Of a stretch of DNA of 63,751 bases, positions 46,863-57,172 are shown one piece after another. The stretch's first letter is position 1. Each line of letters starts with the position of its first letter. Both the position numbers and the translations under genes were made by a program. The notes under the pieces were generated by a model. The model was given only the letters and a program-made list of their open reading frames with translations. It was not told where the DNA came from and made no database searches. The stretch comes from Nitrospirota bacterium (lineage in GTDB: Bacteria; Nitrospirota; Thermodesulfovibrionia; Thermodesulfovibrionales; UBA9159): assembly GCA_021790195.1 (NCBI GenBank), contig JAJYIF010000019.1, positions 1 to 63,751 on the forward strand, written 5' to 3'.

Positions 46863-47060
46863 TCACGCGCGGTTACAGGGCCTTGCGGCTATGGCGTTCC
46901 AGGTCTCTTCGTCGATCAAATCTTTATACTCTGAAATCCTGAAATCTTTTCTGCATTCCATGCAGCTCAGATAAACGGACCTTCAGCCGAAGACGAGCCT
47001 CAGTTCTCCGCCGCAGTGTTTGCAGGTCATTTGGGATTTTGTCTTGAATACGTTGAACAT
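46863..47060 (-). CDS. Dual-CxxC small selenoprotein, TGA at codon 26
   Basis: ATG 47060 opens MFNVFKTKSQMTCKHCGGEL; an in-frame TGA (46985-46983) is codon 26, and the same frame runs on through RSVYLSCMECRKDF...DEETW...RPCNRA to TGA 46863. The 65-residue product has Cys13/16 and Cys33/36 as a zinc-ribbon-like pair of CxxC motifs with the TGA residue between them. This pattern recalls the known dual-CxxC small (seleno)protein family. A SECIS-like hairpin begins 17 nt after the TGA. A promoter lies 10 nt upstream of the ATG. The alternative, a nonsense mutation, is less likely because frame and motifs continue intact. Confidence 0.72.
46951..46965 (-). promoter_or_regulatory. Bacterial SECIS-like hairpin
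   Basis: On the minus strand CTGCAT, loop GGA, ATGCAG: a perfect 6-bp stem with G first in the apical loop. The loop starts 23 nt after the TGA, within the 16-37 nt range described for bacterial SECIS. A further AUCU/AGAU helix lies below an internal loop. Confidence 0.65.
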
Positions 47061-47099: not shown

Positions 47100-47181
47100 G
47101 CATTGAAAAGGTCCTGTAAGATATTAAATTTGCAGTAATAAGGTTGACTGCTAAATGGCTTCCATGGCTGTGAAAAATACC

Positions 47182-47210
47182 TTGACAAAGAAATCTTCGT
47201 ATGGATAAAT
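47182..47210 (+). promoter_or_regulatory. Promoter of module copy A
   Basis: TTGACA (47182-47187), 17-nt spacer, ATAAAT (47205-47210). It is preceded by TGTGAAAAATACC, shared with the 62733-62750 promoter. Transcription would start near 47217. Confidence 0.55.
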
Positions 47211-47235
47211 AGACAACATGAGGGAGAACAAGATA

Positions 47236-48525
47236 ATGAGGCATCTGCTTAGTGTTTTTTTGGTACTTATCTTTGCAGTATCTGCATCCGCTCAGGGCGC
47301 TTATGATCAAGATATGTCGAGAGGTATGTCTGCCCTTGGCAAGAAGGACTACAGTTCGGCGGAAGATGCCTTCAGGGGGGCCTTAAAGGAATCGCCTGAC
47401 GACTACAAGGCAAATCTCTATCTCGGCATCGTCCTCAACAAGAAGGGAGAGAAGGAGGCCCAGAGCTATCTGAAGAAGGCCCTGCTTGTCAATCCCGAGG
47501 ACCCGAATACGAACCTGCAGCTGGGTATTTATTATTTCAACAGGTCGGTATATCCTGAGGCCAAGGATTATTTCGAAAACACCATAGATCTATCACCTGG
47601 GTCTGAGTATTCAACGGAGGCGAGGACGTATATTGAGAAGATGACAGGGCCGAAGGCAGCCAAGAGGTGGAGAGTGGACGCGGCCCTTGGGATGCAGTAT
47701 GACAGCAATGTCATCGTGGGGCCCGGTAATCAGCCCCCTCCGAAGGGGATATCCGGGAAGTCGGACTGGAGCGGAGTGCTCTACTTGAAAGGTCAATATG
47801 ATCTCATTACCTCGGACCGCTTCGTGGGGAGCGTGAGCTATTCCGCTTATCAAAGTCTGCACACGCGGTTGACCGATTTCAACATAACCCAGCAGGTCGG
47901 AGGATTGGACGCCGCCTATGCGCTGACTAACGGAGTGACTCTAAGAGGCTCATATGCATTTGAGTATGTCCTTGTGGGCGGGGATGAATATGATTATGCC
48001 CACACCCTTACGCCGGCTGTAATATTTACATACGGCAATGGTTTTTCGACGGTGCTCAATTACGCTTACAGCAAGGTCCATTTCTCAAACAGCGGCCTTT
48101 TTCCGACCAACTCGGACAGGAGCGGTTTTAACCACAGCGGCTCGATCGTACAGTATCTACCGTTGTTTGGCGGTGATTTTTTGACGGCGAGGTTGGGCTA
48201 TTCCGCCGACAAGGACGTGACGAGGGAAGAGTTTTGGGCCTATACCGGGAACAAGGGCTTCGGAGGTCTGACCTTCAAGATCCTGCCGACGCTCTCGGCT
48301 GATGTGTATGGAGAGTATTACAACAGGAGATACAAAGGGAAATATCCGCTGGACGGTCCCAGGAGGAATGACAATATTCAGACCTATGCATTGACGGTGA
48401 GCAAGAAGCTTTCAGATATATTCAGCGTAGTAGTAGGGGAGACCTATATCTGGAACAACTCGAACATAAATGTGTTTGAGTACAAGAGGTCCATAACAAG
48501 CGCGTTTGTAACAGCGAGGTTTTAG
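47236..48525 (+). CDS. Outer-membrane TPR/beta-barrel protein, Slam-like (copy A)
   Basis: The 429-residue protein has a clean signal peptide (cleaved near SASA/QG), about three TPRs at residues 17-125 (RGMSALGKKDYSSAEDAFRG, ANLYLGIVLNKKGEKEAQSY, NLQLGIYYFNRSVYPEAKDY) and a C-terminal region of alternating strands (about 140-429) ending in aromatic Phe (VTARF), as outer-membrane barrels do. TPR plus barrel is the layout of Slam/DUF560 translocators that move lipoproteins to the surface; the assignment is by architecture only. AGGGAG at 47221-47226 favours ATG 47236 over 47218. FecR and lipoprotein genes follow directly. Confidence 0.75.
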   Translation: MRHLLSVFLVLIFAVSASAQGAYDQDMSRGMSALGKKDYSSAEDAFRGALKESPDDYKANLYLGIVLNKKGEKEAQSYLKKALLVNPEDPNTNLQLGIYYFNRSVYPEAKDYFENTIDLSPGSEYSTEARTYIEKMTGPKAAKRWRVDAALGMQYDSNVIVGPGNQPPPKGISGKSDWSGVLYLKGQYDLITSDRFVGSVSYSAYQSLHTRLTDFNITQQVGGLDAAYALTNGVTLRGSYAFEYVLVGGDEYDYAHTLTPAVIFTYGNGFSTVLNYAYSKVHFSNSGLFPTNSDRSGFNHSGSIVQYLPLFGGDFLTARLGYSADKDVTREEFWAYTGNKGFGGLTFKILPTLSADVYGEYYNRRYKGKYPLDGPRRNDNIQTYALTVSKKLSDIFSVVVGETYIWNNSNINVFEYKRSITSAFVTARF

Positions 48526-49341
48526 ATGAAAAGAAATACGGTAATTTTCGTCCTTGTATTTTTGTTAATGTCCATGATGGTGCTTGGAGTTTCAGATGTT
48601 TTTGCAGTGCAGGACATAGGGGCAGTGGTAGCCCTGAGGGGGAGCGCTGTAATCGACAGGGACGCCAAGAAGATCGAGGCCAGGGTCAAGGAGGGCATTC
48701 AGTTGAAGGACATTGTCCAGACGGGGCAAAGGTCGAGGACGAAGATGCTTTTTATCGATGACAGTGTTTTGACCATGGGGGAGAACTCCAGGATGGTGAT
48801 AAAGGAATTCGTATACAGCAAGGACAAGCGGACCAGATCGATATTTAATCTTATGGACGGCAAGATGAGGTCGGTTGTAGGGAGGGCGGAGTTTGAGGTG
48901 CAGACCCCTACGGCTGTTGCAGCCGCCAGAGGTACAGTGTTTGATTGTGAGACAGGAGAGATGGCAGGGAAGGCATACACCACCTGCACATCGTATGAAG
49001 GCATAGTGGACATCCGGAGCACGGATCCTACAATTACGGGGAGGGTGAGTCTGAGACCGGGCATGACGGTTACTGTTATGAGCGGGCAGCCGATTCCAAC
49101 TCCGACACCCGCTGCATCGGCAGTCATTCAGTCCGGCCAGGCTGTCCAGCAGGGAACCGGAGCGGCCGGACCGGGAGGAGGAGTTCTTCCGATAATAGTA
49201 CCTCCACAGACTAATCCTCAGCCTCCGAATGTTACGCCGACGCTGCCGACAACGCCGGTGAATGTGGGGATAAACTTCCCGGGGACGACGCCGACACCGA
49301 CACCGACGCCTAACACGGGTTCAATACATGCAGGATGGTAG
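48526..49341 (+). CDS. Secreted FecR-domain protein (copy A)
   Basis: The 271 residues have a signal peptide (to about 27), then a FecR domain (about 30-170) with VVALRGSAVIDRDAK, DIVQTGQRSRTKMLFIDDSV and FEVQTPTAVAAARGTVFD. A Pro/Thr/Ala-rich tail with a PTPTPTP run follows and it ends GSIHAGW. No anti-sigma membrane part is present, so it is more like the exported, surface-linked FecR proteins than the iron regulator. Its ATG directly follows the barrel gene stop; the lipoprotein ATG comes 7 nt after its own stop. The C-terminal GSIHxGW recurs in the next protein. Confidence 0.8.
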   Translation: MKRNTVIFVLVFLLMSMMVLGVSDVFAVQDIGAVVALRGSAVIDRDAKKIEARVKEGIQLKDIVQTGQRSRTKMLFIDDSVLTMGENSRMVIKEFVYSKDKRTRSIFNLMDGKMRSVVGRAEFEVQTPTAVAAARGTVFDCETGEMAGKAYTTCTSYEGIVDIRSTDPTITGRVSLRPGMTVTVMSGQPIPTPTPAASAVIQSGQAVQQGTGAAGPGGGVLPIIVPPQTNPQPPNVTPTLPTTPVNVGINFPGTTPTPTPTPNTGSIHAGW

Positions 49342-49348
49342 GAAAACA

Positions 49349-50926
49349 ATGAAGATGAAAAGGACAGGCAAGGCAATAGCGATAGTTCTGGCGAGTTTTT
49401 TAACGGCATTTATATCCGGTTGCGGCGGGGGCGGGTCCGCATCGAATTCAGGCACGACTTCAGGCACGACAAAGGTAACCGTCAGCATAGACGAGTCCAA
49501 AGTTATGAGTTCTGAAGCTGGCCGGTCCTCTTCGGCGGTCCCTCAGAGTGTAGCCACGATAGTTGTTACGGTTTCGGGTTCGGGCATGCAGACACAACAG
49601 CAAACAGTCAATGTTTCTGGGCAGTCGGACATCACCATAACATTCGATGGTAATGATGCTATTCCAAACGGACCGAACAGGGACTTTTTTGCCGTTGCAA
49701 AGGATTCAAGCGGCGCGACCCTTTTCCAGGGTGACGCTAAGGCCGACCTCGACGGAACACCAATAAATGTTCCCATCAATATGAACTTCGTTGTCGAAGG
49801 CGAGTGGACTCTAACTACAACAGGCCAGGATGGACAGGCGAAAATCGCTTTTATTACAGTTACTCAGACGGGCAATTCTCTAACATTCTCGGGCACTGAC
49901 CCCGAAGGAGGCAACTTTACAGGGAGCGGCACACTGAATGGAAGTACTGTGCAACTAACGGTCACCGGCACCGATTGTGGAAATGCTTTTAACGCATCCG
50001 TAACCGGAACGCTTTCTGCTGATGGAAGAGCCATTAATGGTAACTTCACGCAAACCGGAGGCTGCGGCAGCGATTCGGGTTCGGTCGGAGGGGTAAGAGG
50101 TCATGTCAGTCCTGCGGCAACCCTGACCTCCGTAGCTGTTACGCCGACGAATCCGAGCATATCGGCAGGCACTACCCAGCAGTTTACGGCTACAGGCTCG
50201 TATTCCGACGGATCGACTCAGGATATAACCGCGCAGGTTGTCTGGAGTTCGTCTGACGCATCGGTAGCGACCATTAGCAATGCCGGTCTTGCCACAGGCG
50301 TTGCGGCAGGTAATGCAACCATTACCGCCGCATCCGGCAGTATTTCGGGGAGTGCGACTCTTACTGTGACATCTTCACAGAATCAGGGCGTGGTTTCGGG
50401 CACGGTCACATTGAATTCACCTACCGGACCGGCGATACCGGGGGTAACGGTAACGCTTTCCCAGCAAGGGACTGCGAAAGCTACAACAACAACTGACTCC
50501 AACGGCAAATACAGCATCACCGTGGCTGCCGGCAACTATACAATATCTTTTGCCAAGCCCGGTTTTACTACAACTCCAGCCGATATAACTATTGTTGCAG
50601 GACTTACACTGATTACCAATGCAACGGCGGTGTCGACGTCCCCCGTTCTGATTTCTATATCGGTCACGCCGACAAATCCGAGCATAGCCGTAGGCGCTAC
50701 CCAGCAGTTTACGGCCACGGGCTCGTATTCCGACGGATCGACTCAGGATATGACCGCGCAGGTTGCCTGGAGTTCGTCGAATACGTCGGTAGCGACCATT
50801 AGCAACGCCGGTCTTGCCACAGGCGTTGCGGCCGGCACCGCAACCATTACCGCCACATCCGGCGGTGTTTCAGGGACCGCTACCTTGACCGTGACTAACA
50901 ATGGATCTATACATGTTGGATGGTAG
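49349..50926 (+). CDS. Surface lipoprotein with Ig-like and CnaB-like domains
   Basis: The 525-residue lipoprotein has lipobox ISGC near 22, then GGGG and a Ser/Thr spacer. The family N-domain (to about 150: VTVSIDESKVMSSEAGRSSS, TVSGSGMQTQQQTVNV) is shared with 55272-57172 and loosely with 51003-53006. A beta domain with TLSADGRAINGNFTQTGGCG follows, then Big_2 Ig domain 1 (about 265-345), a carboxypeptidase-regulatory/CnaB-like domain (VVSGTVTLNSPTGPAIPGVT), Big_2 domain 2 and terminal GSIHVGW. Start at ATG 49349, set by TAGGAAA. Confidence 0.82.
   Translation: MKMKRTGKAIAIVLASFLTAFISGCGGGGSASNSGTTSGTTKVTVSIDESKVMSSEAGRSSSAVPQSVATIVVTVSGSGMQTQQQTVNVSGQSDITITFDGNDAIPNGPNRDFFAVAKDSSGATLFQGDAKADLDGTPINVPINMNFVVEGEWTLTTTGQDGQAKIAFITVTQTGNSLTFSGTDPEGGNFTGSGTLNGSTVQLTVTGTDCGNAFNASVTGTLSADGRAINGNFTQTGGCGSDSGSVGGVRGHVSPAATLTSVAVTPTNPSISAGTTQQFTATGSYSDGSTQDITAQVVWSSSDASVATISNAGLATGVAAGNATITAASGSISGSATLTVTSSQNQGVVSGTVTLNSPTGPAIPGVTVTLSQQGTAKATTTTDSNGKYSITVAAGNYTISFAKPGFTTTPADITIVAGLTLITNATAVSTSPVLISISVTPTNPSIAVGATQQFTATGSYSDGSTQDMTAQVAWSSSNTSVATISNAGLATGVAAGTATITATSGGVSGTATLTVTNNGSIHVGW
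50141..50370 (+). repeat. Big_2 domain DNA repeat, unit 1
   Basis: This stretch and 50666-50895 (offset 525) are highly similar, with long identical runs such as TATTCCGACGGATCGACTCA. They encode the two Big_2 domains either side of the CnaB-like domain and could recombine to delete it. Confidence 0.75.
50666..50895 (+). repeat. Big_2 domain DNA repeat, unit 2
   Basis: Second copy of the unit at 50141-50370, immediately before the terminal GSIHVGW codons. Confidence 0.75.
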
Positions 50927-51002
50927 TTGGCATACAGACCTGCACCCGCAGTGTTGATGCGAATGTACATTATATGAGCATAAACAGGGAGGCATGAAAG
51001 AA

Positions 51003-53006
51003 ATGAAGAAATCGATCCTTGGTAAGGTATGTTTTATTTTATTGTCGGTTGCCTTGACGGCATGCGGCTCCAACAGCAGCTCTACTAATGCCGGGATCGG
51101 GTCAATATCGGCTCAGCTGGATTGGAGCAGGGTGGTCGTCAGCTCGTCGAGCAAACTTGCTGCTACAGCTCCTACCGGCGTTGCGACGGTCAGGATCATT
51201 GTCTCAGGATCGGGCATGTCCGATATACAGAAGGATTTTGACGCGTCTCTCGGACAAGGAGTCATTGACGGTGTTCCGGCCGGCAGCAATAGGACAGTAA
51301 CTGCGCAGGGACTGGATTCGACCGGTGTCTTGATGTATCAGGGATCGGTAAGCAACATGACCGTCACGGCCGGACATACAACGGACGTGGGGACGATTAC
51401 GATGCTGCCTCTGAGCGGAGGTTCGTCAGTTACGCTGATTCCGGGCACTGCGGCGCAGGCTACCCTGAATACAGGTGGCAATACCGTTAATTTCAATTTT
51501 GCGGCCAACGCCGTCAACCAACAGACAGTGGCTACACTCACCGAGGTGACCAGCGGCGGACTTCCTGTTGGTATTTCCAGCAAGAAGGCCGGCTTCACGC
51601 TCAGCCCCGACAATGTCTTTGTCCTCGGGTTTACGCTTACCACCAACCCCGGCATTACGGCCTTCAACGTCCCCGTCTCAATGAGCGGCACACTGTCTTC
51701 AACGTCCGGCATCACTTCCGGAACTACGCTAAACCTGGCGATGCTGCAGAACAATACATGGGTGGATGTTGCGACGATCGCGGTGGGGAACAATGGTTCG
51801 TTTACTGAAAATTTTCTTTCAACTACCCTGGTGGGTATCCTGACTCCTGGAACCTATGTGCTTTATAAGCCGGCCCCTGGCGGCAGCACCACTGTCTCGA
51901 ATCTGGGAATCGCTCTTGTTGCGGATGACGGAAACGGGTCGGGAAACTCTTCGAGCGCCTTGCAGGTTATCAATCTGTATGATTCAAACGGGAACCCGTT
52001 GGCCACTCCGACTATAAAGTATTTGCATTACGACGGCGCATACGACATTGACGGGCAGGCCCTTACGCCGGACGGCTCGCAGGGTATTCTGGTTGACGGC
52101 GGCAATACCATCAGGTTCTTCTCCAACGTGCAAACCGGAGTGCCCCTAGCATCAACCACTACGCTTGACGTTTCGGCTTATGGTGGAGACGGCGACTCCG
52201 TAGCCATCATGCCGAACGGCGATGAAGCAGTGGTTTCGGCTGACAGCTCCACCGAGCTTCTCCTTGTTTCCGGCATTGTCTCAGGAAATCCTAAAGAAGC
52301 GACTACTATCCCGATTCCCGGCAACCGCGATGGCGTAGTTATCTCCAATGACGGCGCTGTTCTTTTGGCTCGCGGTAATGGTGGGCTCACGGTTTTCAGT
52401 ATTGCCCCAGTGACTCCGGCTCCGGGTACGCTCGGAGGTATGGTTTCTCATAGCTTTACGCAGACCGCGGATATTACAACTCTGGGATCAATTTCGGAGG
52501 ATGGGCGAAACGGTATCGCTATAAGTCCTAAAGATTCCAGCAGGGCGGTGATAGTGGGCTCCTCTAGTAATACTAGCTTGGCAATTGCAACACTGGTCAC
52601 AGGAGTGCCTGGTTCCCCGACAGTGGGAACGTCTGTCACTATCTCAGGCGCACTCATGGTTCTTTCAGTGGCTATTACTCCGGACGGCAAGACCGCTATC
52701 GTGGGGACCGACGCCGGCATTGCGATGCTTTCGGGCGTTGATACCGGCACATTGACGCAGGTCGGGGGATTGTATGCTCCTACGTATGCGGGCAGCGGAG
52801 GAAGTGTGACGATGGGATATGTGCCGACACTCGGCGTGACCCTTGACGGAAAGTTCGTTGTCGTTTGCGATGCTGGCCCCTTCTCCTCTTCGGTAAGTTC
52901 AGGCTCTTTGCTTGTCATTCCGATAAATGCGACTGGGTTTGGGGCTCCTGTGGGGATCTTAAACGGTATTGCAGTTCCGTACAACGATCAGATGGTCATT
53001 CACTGA
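51003..53006 (+). CDS. Lipoprotein with beta-propeller-like C-terminal half
   Basis: The 667-residue lipoprotein has lipobox LTAC near residue 20. The N-domain (about 30-135: SISAQLDWSRVVVSSSSKLA, VRIIVSGSGMSDIQKDFDAS, GLDSTGVLMYQG) parallels the N-domain of the neighbouring lipoproteins. A middle beta domain follows, then from about 300 a series of propeller-like blades (DGQALTPDGSQGILVDGG, DSVAIMPNGDEAVVSAD, SVAITPDGKTAIVGTD, GVTLDGKFVVVCDAG). GGGAGG at about 50986-50991 favours ATG 51003 over 50994. It is in the copy A unit, closed by the terminator at 53035. Confidence 0.8.
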   Translation: MKKSILGKVCFILLSVALTACGSNSSSTNAGIGSISAQLDWSRVVVSSSSKLAATAPTGVATVRIIVSGSGMSDIQKDFDASLGQGVIDGVPAGSNRTVTAQGLDSTGVLMYQGSVSNMTVTAGHTTDVGTITMLPLSGGSSVTLIPGTAAQATLNTGGNTVNFNFAANAVNQQTVATLTEVTSGGLPVGISSKKAGFTLSPDNVFVLGFTLTTNPGITAFNVPVSMSGTLSSTSGITSGTTLNLAMLQNNTWVDVATIAVGNNGSFTENFLSTTLVGILTPGTYVLYKPAPGGSTTVSNLGIALVADDGNGSGNSSSALQVINLYDSNGNPLATPTIKYLHYDGAYDIDGQALTPDGSQGILVDGGNTIRFFSNVQTGVPLASTTTLDVSAYGGDGDSVAIMPNGDEAVVSADSSTELLLVSGIVSGNPKEATTIPIPGNRDGVVISNDGAVLLARGNGGLTVFSIAPVTPAPGTLGGMVSHSFTQTADITTLGSISEDGRNGIAISPKDSSRAVIVGSSSNTSLAIATLVTGVPGSPTVGTSVTISGALMVLSVAITPDGKTAIVGTDAGIAMLSGVDTGTLTQVGGLYAPTYAGSGGSVTMGYVPTLGVTLDGKFVVVCDAGPFSSSVSSGSLLVIPINATGFGAPVGILNGIAVPYNDQMVIH

Positions 53007-53034
53007 GATGATCTTTAATTGATATATCGATGAT

Positions 53035-53062
53035 AACGAGGGGCTTCGGCCCCTCGTTTTTT
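53035..53062 (+). terminator. Rho-independent terminator between module copies
   Basis: AACGAGGGGC, loop TTCG, GCCCCTCGTT, then T residues: a perfect 10-bp stem. It separates the two modules into independent transcripts. Confidence 0.95.
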
Positions 53063-53104
53063 ATTGTGGTGAATAGTGGCCTCATTCGGGAAGGTAGAAG
53101 TGAC

Positions 53105-53133
53105 TTGACAAGGGAATCTTCGTATAGATAAAT
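53105..53133 (+). promoter_or_regulatory. Promoter of module copy B
   Basis: TTGACA (53105-53110), 17-nt spacer, ATAAAT (53128-53133). It is similar to the copy A promoter from the -35 box on, but the sequence upstream is unrelated, so the two copies may be regulated differently. Confidence 0.55.
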
Positions 53134-53158
53134 AGACAACATGAGGGAGAACAAGATA

Positions 53159-54448
53159 ATGAGGCATCTGCTTAGTGTTTTTTTGGTACTTATCTTTGCA
53201 GTATCTGCATCCGCTCAGGGCGCTTATGATCAAGATATGTCGAGAGGTATGTCTGCCCTTGGCAAGAAGGACTACAGTTCGGCGGAAGATGCCTTCAGGG
53301 GGGCCTTAAAGGAATCGCCTGACGACTACAAGGCAAATCTCTATCTCGGCATCGTCCTCAACAAGAAGGGAGAGAAGGAGGCCCAGAGCTATCTGAAGAA
53401 GGCCCTGCTTGTCAATCCCGAGGACCCGAATACGAACCTGCAGCTGGGTATTTATTATTTCAACAGGTCGGTATATCCTGAGGCCAAGGATTATTTCGAA
53501 AACACCATAGATCTATCACCTGGGTCTGAGTATTCAACGGAGGCGAGGACGTATATTGAGAAGATGACAGGGCCGAAGGCAGCCAAGAGGTGGAGAGTGG
53601 ACGCGGCCCTTGGGATGCAGTATGACAGCAATGTCATCGTGGGGCCCGGTAATCAGCCCCCTCCGAAGGGGATATCCGGGAAGTCGGACTGGAGCGGAGT
53701 GCTCTACTTGAAAGGTCAATATGATCTCATTACCTCGGACCGCTTCGTGGGGAGCGTGAGCTATTCCGCTTATCAAAGTCTGCACACGCGGTTGACCGAT
53801 TTCAACATAACCCAGCAGGTCGGAGGATTGGACGCCGCCTATGCGCTGACTAACGGAGTGACTCTAAGAGGCTCATATGCATTTGAGTATGTCCTTGTGG
53901 GCGGGGATGAATATGATTATGCCCACACCCTTACGCCGGCTGTAATATTTACATACGGCAATGGTTTTTCGACGGTGCTCAATTACGCTTACAGCAAGGT
54001 CCATTTCTCAAACAGCGGCCTTTTTCCGACCAACTCGGACAGGAGCGGTTTTAACCACAGCGGCTCGATCGTACAGTATCTACCGTTGTTTGGCGGTGAT
54101 TTTTTGACGGCGAGGTTGGGCTATTCCGCCGACAAGGACGTGACGAGGGAAGAGTTTTGGGCCTATACCGGGAACAAGGGCTTCGGAGGTCTGACCTTCA
54201 AGATCCTGCCGACGCTCTCGGCTGATGTGTATGGAGAGTATTACAACAGGAGATACAAAGGGAAATATCCGCTGGACGGTCCCAGGAGGAATGACAATAT
54301 TCAGACCTATGCATTGACGGTGAGCAAGAAGCTTTCAGATATATTCAGCGTAGTAGTAGGGGAGACCTATATCTGGAACAACTCGAACATAAATGTGTTT
54401 GAGTACAAGAGGTCCATAACAAGCGCGTTTGTAACAGCGAGGTTTTAG
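53159..54448 (+). CDS. Outer-membrane TPR/beta-barrel protein, Slam-like (copy B)
   Basis: Identical in sequence to the copy A product at 47236-48525 over all 429 residues: signal peptide, three TPRs, C-terminal barrel ending VTARF. AGGGAG again precedes the chosen ATG. Full identity of two long paralogues implies very recent duplication or ongoing gene conversion, or a dosage need. It is followed directly by the FecR gene copy. Confidence 0.75.
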   Translation: MRHLLSVFLVLIFAVSASAQGAYDQDMSRGMSALGKKDYSSAEDAFRGALKESPDDYKANLYLGIVLNKKGEKEAQSYLKKALLVNPEDPNTNLQLGIYYFNRSVYPEAKDYFENTIDLSPGSEYSTEARTYIEKMTGPKAAKRWRVDAALGMQYDSNVIVGPGNQPPPKGISGKSDWSGVLYLKGQYDLITSDRFVGSVSYSAYQSLHTRLTDFNITQQVGGLDAAYALTNGVTLRGSYAFEYVLVGGDEYDYAHTLTPAVIFTYGNGFSTVLNYAYSKVHFSNSGLFPTNSDRSGFNHSGSIVQYLPLFGGDFLTARLGYSADKDVTREEFWAYTGNKGFGGLTFKILPTLSADVYGEYYNRRYKGKYPLDGPRRNDNIQTYALTVSKKLSDIFSVVVGETYIWNNSNINVFEYKRSITSAFVTARF

Positions 54449-55264
54449 ATGAAAAGAAATACGGTAATTTTCGTCCTTGTATTTTTGTTAATGTCCATGA
54501 TGGTGCTTGGAGTTTCAGATGTTTTTGCAGTGCAGGACATAGGGGCAGTGGTAGCCCTGAGGGGGAGCGCTGTAATCGACAGGGACGCCAAGAAGATCGA
54601 GGCCAGGGTCAAGGAGGGCATTCAGTTGAAGGACATTGTCCAGACGGGGCAAAGGTCGAGGACGAAGATGCTTTTTATCGATGACAGTGTTTTGACCATG
54701 GGGGAGAACTCCAGGATGGTGATAAAGGAATTCGTATACAGCAAGGACAAGCGGACCAGATCGATATTTAATCTTATGGACGGCAAGATGAGGTCGGTTG
54801 TAGGGAGGGCGGAGTTTGAGGTGCAGACCCCTACGGCTGTTGCAGCCGCCAGAGGTACAGTGTTTGATTGTGAGACAGGAGAGATGGCAGGGAAGGCATA
54901 CACCACCTGCACATCGTATGAAGGCATAGTGGACATCCGGAGCACGGATCCTACAATTACGGGGAGGGTGAGTCTGAGACCGGGCATGACGGTTACTGTT
55001 ATGAGCGGGCAGCCGATTCCAACTCCGACACCCGCTGCATCGGCAGTCATTCAGTCCGGCCAGGCTGTCCAGCAGGGAACCGGAGCGGCCGGACCGGGAG
55101 GAGGAGTTCTTCCGATAATAGTACCTCCACAGACTAATCCTCAGCCTCCGAATGTTACGCCGACGCTGCCGACAACGCCGGTGAATGTGGGGATAAACTT
55201 CCCGGGGACGACGCCGACACCGACACCGACGCCTAACACGGGTTCAATACATGCAGGATGGTAG
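54449..55264 (+). CDS. Secreted FecR-domain protein (copy B)
   Basis: Identical to 48526-49341: signal peptide, FecR domain, Pro/Thr-rich tail, terminal GSIHAGW. It abuts the barrel gene (copy B) and is followed 7 nt later by the out-of-frame lipoprotein gene, as in copy A. Confidence 0.8.
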   Translation: MKRNTVIFVLVFLLMSMMVLGVSDVFAVQDIGAVVALRGSAVIDRDAKKIEARVKEGIQLKDIVQTGQRSRTKMLFIDDSVLTMGENSRMVIKEFVYSKDKRTRSIFNLMDGKMRSVVGRAEFEVQTPTAVAAARGTVFDCETGEMAGKAYTTCTSYEGIVDIRSTDPTITGRVSLRPGMTVTVMSGQPIPTPTPAASAVIQSGQAVQQGTGAAGPGGGVLPIIVPPQTNPQPPNVTPTLPTTPVNVGINFPGTTPTPTPTPNTGSIHAGW

Positions 55265-55271
55265 GAAAACA

Positions 55272-57172
55272 ATGAAGATGAAAAGGACAGGCAAGGCAAT
55301 AGCGATAGTTCTGGCGAGTTTTTTAACGGCATTTATATCCGGTTGCGGCGGGGGGGAGTATCTGCATCGAATACCGGGACAACTAAGGTAACGGTCAGCA
55401 TAGACGAGTCCAAAGTTATGAGTTCTGAAGCTGGCCGGTCCTCTTCGGCGGTCCCTCAGAGTGTAGCCACGATAGTTGTTACGGTTTCGGGTTCGGGCAT
55501 GCAGACCCAGCAGCAAACAGTCAATGTTTCTGGGCAGTCGGACATCACCATAACATTCGATGGTAATGATGCTATTCCAAACGGACCGAACAGGGACTTT
55601 TTTGCCGTTGCAAAGGATTCAAGCGGCGCGACTGTTTTCCAGGGAGACGCTAAGGCCGACCTCGACGGAACACCCGCAAATGTTACTATACATATGGGTT
55701 TTATACTTTCAGGCGCGTGGTCTCTCATGCACACTCCTCAGGGGCAGACCGAGAAAGGCCCCCAGTTTTTCAATATGACCCAGACGGGTAACACTTTGTC
55801 GTTTACATTTTTTGATAGCGATGGGACCTCTCACACAGGCAGCGGCAGCGTCAACGGCGGCGACGTTCAGATGACTATCCCGGACAACACGGACAGCTGC
55901 AACAATCCGGCTCCGGTTACACTTACGGGGACTATTGCGTCCTATGGAATTACAATGACCGGCACATACACGACCCCCGGGACTTCCGGAAACTGCGCTA
56001 ACGGAGAAACAGGGACATGGACGGCTACAAGGGCCCAGTCTACTTCATTTGATATATCTGGCGGCTGGTCAGGGTTCCTGACGCCCCAAAGCGGCTCGGA
56101 GCAGGGCCCGTCCTGCATGACATTTACACAGAGCGGCAGCTATTTTACCTTTACGGGTGATTCCACCGGCAGCGGCACCCTGAGCGGCAACAATATTATG
56201 TTCCAATTCTCTCAGTCAGCGGGCGGCAACACCGGCTGCATTATAGATAATTATCTCACCGGCACGGTAGCCGCCGACGGCAATTCCGCGAGCGGTACAT
56301 TCACCACCGCTAATGATTGCGGCATCCCGCCCGTGTCAGGAACGTGGAGGGCGGTCAAGGGTGCATGTTCGACCCCGCCGCCAGCCACCCAGGGCACGCT
56401 GTCCGGCACAGTTACGGACGCTCTTACAGGATTGGCGCTTTCGGGCGCAATTGTCACCGTTACCCAGCAGGGGACGACGATTGCGAGCGCGACTACTGCG
56501 ACGGATGGCACGTATTCATTGAGTATGGCATCGGGCACATACACCGCCGCGTTCTCGACCTCCGGTTATATAATATCGACCATCGATAATGTCAGCATAG
56601 GAGCAAGTTCAACCACAACTCTTAATGCGGTTCTGAGTCCTGTTCCCACTGCGGGCCAGGTGAGGATTGTTCTTACCTGGGACTATTCGAAAGGGAACCT
56701 CGATCTGGATTCGTATCTGCAGGGGCCGCGAGCTCCCGGTGACACGACCGCCGGACCGTTTCAGACGTGGTATGGGTATGGGAGCAAGGTCTATAGTTTC
56801 AATGGCATTGTATACGCGCAGCTTGATCATGACTGGACAGACCCCGCCGCCGACGGGCCTGTACCGCAGGAGACGACAACGATCGAGCAGCAGGTAGCGG
56901 GGACTTACAATTTCTATGTCCACGATTTTACCGACACCGGCTCCGCGAACAGTGTTGCCTTGTCTAATTCGACTGCACAGGTAAAAGTGTATGTCGGCAA
57001 CACACTTGCCGCGACTTATAACGTTCCCACAAATCAGACGGGCACTGTTTGGACGGTGTTCCAATTAAGCGGAAGCAATCCTACCCCCGTCAATACGCTG
57101 TCCTCGGATGAAACGGTCCTTCAGAGCGCCTCGCGTGCTGGCTCGTCTCTGAAGAAAAGCAAGAAGAGGTAA
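55272..57172 (+). pseudogene. Surface lipoprotein gene out of frame at a G tract
   Basis: ATG 55272 starts the same signal peptide and lipobox as copy A, but a run of seven G (55350-55356) throws the frame into a stop after 39 codons. One more G would restore a 633-residue lipoprotein whose codons continue as VSASNTGTTKVTV. The downstream frame is fully open: family N-domain, two beta domains with a CG/GCI pattern, a CnaB-like domain (GTLSGTVTDALTGLALSGAI) and a YfaP/DUF2135-like C-terminal domain (VRIVLTWDYSKGNLDLDSYL). This suggests phase variation; sequencing error is the other option. Confidence 0.75.
55350..55356 (+). repeat. Seven-G tract, candidate phase-variation site
   Basis: An uninterrupted G7 directly after the lipobox Cys codons. 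In copy A the same place reads GGGGGCGGG, broken by C. Slippage by one base would switch the lipoprotein on or off. Confidence 0.7.

Follow-up and report, generated by a model that had tools for sequence, protein, structure and literature searches.

A duplicated barrel, FecR and lipoprotein module in a Nitrospirota genome, with CHASE2 cyclases beside many of its relatives

The stretch analysed here (the window) is one whole contig of 63,751 nt (C50; JAJYIF010000019.1 of assembly GCA_021790195.1) from the 3.3-Mb genome of a Nitrospirota bacterium. Between 47181 and 57172 it carries two tandem units, offset by 5923 nt, in which open reading frames (ORFs) and Pfam matches give the order barrel, FecR, lipoprotein: a gene for a tetratricopeptide repeat (TPR) plus outer-membrane barrel protein, one for an exported FecR-domain protein, and then a region of lipoprotein passengers. 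Our best reading is a lipoprotein display module that is coupled, in many relatives, to trans-envelope cyclic AMP (cAMP) signalling. Such gene sets would probably display and sense surface proteins rather than serve export alone; that the module also serves as the outer portion of a sensor reaching across the envelope is a proposal to which we give slightly less than an even chance. An initial annotation, made from the window sequence, had described a lipoprotein export and display system, an account that includes neither the CHASE2 cyclases of relatives nor the frame break in the second unit, both of which are described below.

Results

FecR and CHASE2 cyclase genes accompany the barrel in related genomes

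The module is widespread in Nitrospirota and occurs in some Desulfobacterota; relatives found via the barrel came mostly from Nitrospirota metagenome-assembled genomes and in a few cases from Geobacterales or other Desulfobacterota. We surveyed the neighbourhoods of 79 loci by six-frame scoring, taking as denominators those loci with enough downstream sequence. A FecR domain lay 3′ of the barrel in 45 of the 70 loci with room for it, the constant domain of the lipoproteins lay within 3 kb downstream of the barrel in 32/56, and an adenylate/guanylate cyclase (domain content, CHASE2 plus Guanylate_cyc) lay within 7 kb downstream in 23/39. Counts made before six-frame scoring and with other thresholds were 49/66 for FecR, 29/53 for the lipoprotein and 23/39 for the cyclase. 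The upstream control, 471 kb in all, held 2 FecR and 3 cyclase segments. It also held 13 segments of the constant domain, of which several come from distant loci whose lipoprotein lies 5′ of the barrel. Geobacterales strains with names, among them Geomonas (L104) and Geomesophilobacter (L102), also have operons of barrel, FecR and cyclase.

Profile comparison relates the barrel distantly to DUF560/SlipAM proteins

The barrel gene (47218–48525 in unit 1 and, identical, 53141–54448 in unit 2; all unit features lie on the forward strand) is an ORF of 435 amino acids (aa), from which an internal ATG at 47236 yields 429 aa. Its AlphaFold model (mean predicted local distance difference test score, pLDDT, 93.2) was obtained from alignment A2, with 57 rows including the window protein out of 76 barrels plus the window; alignment A1 comprised 31 barrels, with L061 and L063 left out. 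The model has TPR helices up to residue 142, followed by 14 strands (a count that takes a kinked strand at 256–272 as one) ending in a C-terminal F, with short loops on the extracellular side, and would place the barrel in the outer membrane with the TPR domain on the periplasmic side. The TPR-plus-barrel architecture and 14-strand fold foreseen in the initial annotation are therefore recovered in the prediction. The closest solved folds were CymA (Z 23.1, root-mean-square deviation 3.2, 272 aligned) and OmpG (Z 21.4), both 14-stranded barrels. BcsC and PelB were also among the structural matches, and no Slam structure was among the fold matches listed, which counts neither for nor against kinship with Slam.

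Pfam recognizes TPRs in the window protein and scores SlipAM (PF04575) at 17.6 bits, below the cut-off of 22, and a PF04575 search of the whole genome returned no match. Among 31 relatives searched at an E-value of 0.01, SlipAM was found in 5 and BBP2_2 in 19, and the SlipAM cut-off was passed by three distant members of the barrel family (G045, G049, G054). A TPR-free profile of the close family (26 rows) aligned in hhalign to nine SlipAM-passing Nitrospirota proteins with a probability of 100 (E 2.9e-47, 281 columns), a comparison that is not fully independent because the family already included the loci of two of these proteins (L176, L177), and to five canonical SlipAM proteins with a probability of 87.7 (E 3.4e-6, 149 columns); reversed profiles and an unrelated outer-membrane protein, used as controls, gave 0.2–0.6. 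At the level of sequence profiles, the window barrel is thus distantly related to the DUF560/SlipAM barrels, while by the Pfam test it is not a member of the family. The earlier proposal of a Slam-type translocator consequently holds for the TPR-barrel layout, the strand number and distant homology, and fails for the PF04575 assignment in the window and genome and for the known cargo signal (see below).

The extracellular rim of the barrel is conserved more than the periplasmic rim (P = 2e-5 in a broad set and 0.004 in a close set, in a test that takes the TPR side as periplasmic, uses columns that are not independent and ignores phylogeny). Better conservation outside is unusual for a surface porin and would fit a fixed partner at the cell exterior.

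Lipoproteins combine a constant N-terminal domain with exchangeable tails

Unit 1 encodes two lipoproteins, each with a lipobox and the constant domain: lipoprotein 1 (49349–50926, with an alternative ORF start at 49328) has a tail with Big_2 and CarbopepD_reg_2, and lipoprotein 2 (50994–53006, 670 aa) a long tail with no Pfam match. The unit 2 passenger ORF (55343–57172) carries the constant domain and a CarboxypepD_reg tail that differs from unit 1. A hidden Markov model (HMM) of the constant domain, built without the window sequences, recovered the domain in all three passengers (E 1.5e-34 and 1.3e-15 for lipoproteins 1 and 2, and 4.7e-31 for the unit 2 passenger).

The constant domain is predicted to form a seven-strand sandwich (pLDDT 83.3). 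Its predicted fold weakly resembles those of a type III secretin pilotin (Z 9.6) and of adhesin or fimbrial proteins from Bacteroides (Z 7–9), matches which we take to be ExsB, Mfa2, BT2657 and FimA. The likeness to Bacteroidetes fimbrillin-type lipoproteins and the ExsB pilotin (Z 7.8–9.6) lies mostly in the range of common arrangements, and no sequence similarity to them is shown.

Exchangeable passengers beside a constant part, as the initial annotation had it, are a clear pattern among relatives. Of the 31 lipoproteins assembled for comparison (A7, unit 2 passenger left out), 23 were used pairwise: between loci, constant domains were alike in 251/253 pairs, and tails in 59/253, of which 33 were alike over half the tail length. 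The tails contain fn3, Big, beta-helix, carboxypeptidase-regulatory-like and lectin-type (Laminin_G) domains. In two loci (L136, L143) the lipoprotein consists of the constant domain alone and is too short for the eight-strand C-terminal barrel of known Slam cargo; by sequence, no such cargo barrel is among the Pfam families listed for the 31 lipoproteins (25 listed out of 28) or in the window lipoproteins. In the lipobox alignment (A3; 43 rows, with 3 loci skipped for want of a clear lipobox), Asp at +2 occurs in 0/43 rows. In E. coli, lipoproteins without Asp at +2 are sorted to the outer membrane, and by that rule these would be too. A very long lipoprotein of at least 2392 aa, running off its locus (L144:10087-17262), has the same constant domain.

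A C-terminal strand motif hints that FecR touches the lipoprotein

The FecR-domain protein (271 aa; 48526–49341 and, identical, 54449–55264) matches PF04773 at 47.9 bits against a cut-off of 24 (E 1.8e-12), the domain that it shares with FecARI anti-sigma regulators. FecR is the only domain recognized in it, and its N-terminus reads as a signal peptide; annotation covered some of the neighbouring genes. Where the locus has the lipoprotein, FecR carries a strand motif at its C-terminus in 22/31 cases; where it has none, in 0/8 (P = 0.0004, with the motif defined after the data were seen and no correction for kinship or phylogeny), an association that hints at contact between FecR and the lipoprotein.

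The string GSIH(A/V)GW ends both copies of FecR (49324–49341, 55247–55264) and lipoprotein 1 (50909–50926), with synonymous differences among these sites. They are the only 3 sites in the whole genome, against 0 in the control. As a candidate general C-terminal tag the string was rejected, since it occurs in only scattered places among relatives (23/101 genomes, including this one), and we regard it as local.

FecR-TPR fusions adjoin CHASE2 cyclases in the same genome and in rhizobia

Elsewhere in this genome, contig C33 (L198:4400-10110) encodes a protein of 1142 aa that combines FecR and TPRs with a barrel-like C-terminus and adjoins a CHASE2 cyclase. The best plasmid matches to this fusion were megaplasmids of Sinorhizobium, Ensifer and Rhizobium, genera that account for 24 of the 26 records; Rhizobium sp. 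BG4 has a FecR-TPR protein of 1213 aa with a CHASE2 cyclase directly behind it. NsrA is described as an outer-membrane barrel protein of ~1200 aa, the receptor without which CyaK and CyaD1/D2 do not produce cAMP, and the rhizobial NsrA with CyaK as a receptor and cyclase pair shown genetically (PMC7529298, PMC13001267). From their size and neighbour, we infer that the rhizobial fusions are NsrA, and the C33 fusion with its cyclase gives this Nitrospirota genome a pair resembling NsrA and CyaK. On contig C39, another FecR gene (with DUF6600) stands beside a cyclase-like gene (L199:2749-6636), so that FecR-cyclase pairs recur in this genome. At one rhizobial FecR-TPR/cyclase pair, a gene annotated as a Pycsar system effector adjoins on the opposite strand (L203:6253-10570).

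The two units share a perfect tract that ends at a frame break

Over 2228 nt the units do not differ at all (47204–49431 = 53127–55354), in agreement with the ~2.2 kb of identity initially reported, and this identity cannot be attributed to chance. Its 5′ side overlaps a promoter-like element of 37 nt with 3 mismatches between units (47181–47217, with TTGACA at its 5′ end, and 53104–53140), upstream of which the two sequences are unrelated. On the 3′ side the lipoprotein constant domain follows, with 30/360 aligned nucleotides different plus a 12-nt indel, and beyond it alignment ceases; the differing upstream regions and lipoprotein C-termini of the original description are thereby confirmed. 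Between the units lies a strong terminator-like hairpin (53035–53058; 10-pair stem with T tail). The initial annotation gave each unit its own promoter; the element common to both (34/37 nt) resembles a promoter by eye only: the TTGACA element of unit 1 was not among the matches of a scan with the promoter consensus, and these matches, 11 in number, were near the expectation from shuffled sequence (8.2, s.d. 2.7).

We propose that the two units are products of a tandem duplication whose passenger tails diverged afterwards. A perfect tract between diverged homologous flanks would point to gene conversion or very recent re-duplication. A stretch of 2228 identical nt beside a homopolymer frame break might suggest that misassembly produced part of the second copy, which seems improbable to us given the unique flanks on both sides of each copy, the different lipoprotein tails and the independent tandem modules in L087, L131 and L141, where the barrels are far less alike (247/427 identical in L087, 169/432 in L141).

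In unit 1 the constant domain is in frame behind the lipobox cysteine. In unit 2 the frame opened by the same start (55272–55391) closes after 39 codons, and the constant domain is read in a different one, that of the passenger ORF, which has no signal peptide. The break sits at a run of seven G behind the lipobox (55350–55356), inside which the identical tract ends. With signal peptide and passenger in different frames, unit 2 as assembled yields no lipobox lipoprotein, and the initial assignment of such lipoproteins to both units stands for unit 1 only. Phase variation through the G tract was considered and set aside as possible but weak: a G run of at least 7 behind the lipobox occurs in only 1/48 lipoprotein rows listed for relatives (L086), the others having interrupted or few glycine codons there. 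Since the end of the identical tract falls within this G run, the break is equally well explained by an error in the consensus or by a junction left by gene conversion; sequence error, slippage or such a junction may each be its origin.

A small dual-CxxC reading frame lies just upstream

Just 5′ of unit 1, on the reverse strand, lies a small dual-CxxC ORF with an in-frame TGA (46863–47060). It belongs to a known family, the NCBIfam dual CXXC motif small (seleno)protein (60.9 bits against a cut-off of 40), and was found in 52/61 genomes, with TGA in nearly all.

Discussion

With a CHASE2 cyclase recurring at 23/39 loci, signalling and plain export come out about equally likely, and display plus sensing is the best single reading. 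Under this reading, the constant lipoprotein domain would dock on the barrel, which would thread or hold the lipoprotein at the cell surface in the manner of DUF560; the C-terminal strand of FecR would contact the lipoprotein or the TPR domain and report the state of the lipoprotein or its ligand binding, and, where a cyclase is present, this report would change cAMP. The first 2.2 kb of the units would reflect very recent duplication or homogenization by gene conversion. Since the window locus has no cyclase gene, we propose that its two units act as display units or else signal via a cyclase encoded elsewhere.

Several observations weigh against display plus sensing. No CHASE2 cyclase stands beside the window units; among the 39 loci, 6 have barrel, FecR and cyclase without such a lipoprotein, and 8 have FecR and lipoprotein without the cyclase. 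The barrel scores below the SlipAM cut-off, and the rim and strand-motif tests carry the limits given with them. A barrel-only HMM found no match in four FecR-TPR fusions, so that the link to NsrA rests on the parts list and not on barrel homology. In S. meliloti, the FecR gene smc02177, near cyaD1, is reported to be dispensable for signal perception (PMC5498481).

The first alternative is pure export, in which the barrel is a DUF560-like translocator bringing lipoproteins to the surface, FecR is a periplasmic accessory and nearby cyclases regulate expression only. Like the DUF560/SlipAM proteins (Slam1, NilB, HrpB; type XI secretion), the module has a periplasmic TPR domain (~140 aa in NilB) joined to an outer-membrane barrel, adjoining lipoprotein genes and detectable barrel homology, and the window locus lacks a cyclase, all of which favour this account. 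Unlike them, it has a FecR partner and, in relatives, a CHASE2 cyclase, and its barrel falls short of PF04575. The constant part of its cargo is N-terminal and Ig-like, whereas known Slam cargo has a C-terminal eight-strand barrel; lipoproteins made of the constant domain alone, and loci with barrel, FecR and cyclase but no lipoprotein, also sit poorly with an exporter. We consider pure export unlikely, if still credible. Of the original idea of a lipoprotein export and display system, the layout, the distant barrel homology and the constant part with variable tails endure; SlipAM membership and the known cargo signal do not.

Pure signalling would instead make the module an NsrA-type receptor split into genes, with a barrel that binds an outside signal, a FecR relay, a responding cyclase, and lipoproteins that are periplasm-facing modulators and are not exported. 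The FecR and cyclase counts, the FecR-TPR fusions beside CHASE2 cyclases and the NsrA-CyaK precedent speak for it. NsrA systems resemble the module in pairing an outer-membrane barrel protein with a CHASE2 cyclase, and in the rhizobial pairs found here a single protein, similar in size to NsrA, carries both FecR and TPR. They differ in using one 1200-aa protein where separate genes occur here, in lacking a lipoprotein, in a barrel that is not detectably related (four fusions compared) and in their cognate cyclase, which is absent at the window locus and present at 23/39 related loci. Adhesin and carbohydrate-binding tails (fn3, Big, beta-helix, Laminin_G) would be odd for a periplasmic modulator, the extracellular barrel loops are short, and the window locus offers no cyclase to respond; we regard this alternative as rather doubtful. 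A FecR/LysM plus CHASE2 histidine kinase operon of Burkholderia (BiofilmReg) likewise encodes an exported FecR protein with a CHASE2 sensor; there the sensor is a histidine kinase, and neither barrel nor variable lipoprotein appears.

It is very improbable that the barrel is a porin for polysaccharide export, like BcsC, PgaA or PelB, to which the lipoproteins are bound: BBP2_2 in family members and BcsC and PelB among the fold matches favour it, but the model has 14 strands, not the 16 of BcsC/PgaA barrels, and a short TPR domain, its best structural matches are CymA and OmpG, and the neighbouring genes, read as ORF lists only, contain no obvious polysaccharide synthase.

The fullest form of display plus sensing would be a machine of four parts. 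Its DUF560-like barrel would display a lipoprotein whose tail can be exchanged, while FecR, by its C-terminal strand, would engage the constant domain and tell a CHASE2 cyclase of ligand binding or display success: a surface receptor with exchangeable ectodomains and cAMP output, duplicated and shuffled by gene conversion. We put this form forward as a speculative one that is unlikely to hold in every part. Searches of open-licence papers (DUF560 with FecR, CHASE2 with FecR, Slam in Nitrospirota or Geobacter, FecR with adenylate cyclase) found none describing the set. If the proposal is true, it would join DUF560-type lipoprotein display and CHASE2/FecR cAMP signalling, two fields unconnected in the literature searched. 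It would also widen the range of DUF560-like barrels to Nitrospirota, where the substrate signal is a different one, and would supply CHASE2 domains, for which few signals are known, with a concrete outer-membrane input with swappable ligand-binding parts.

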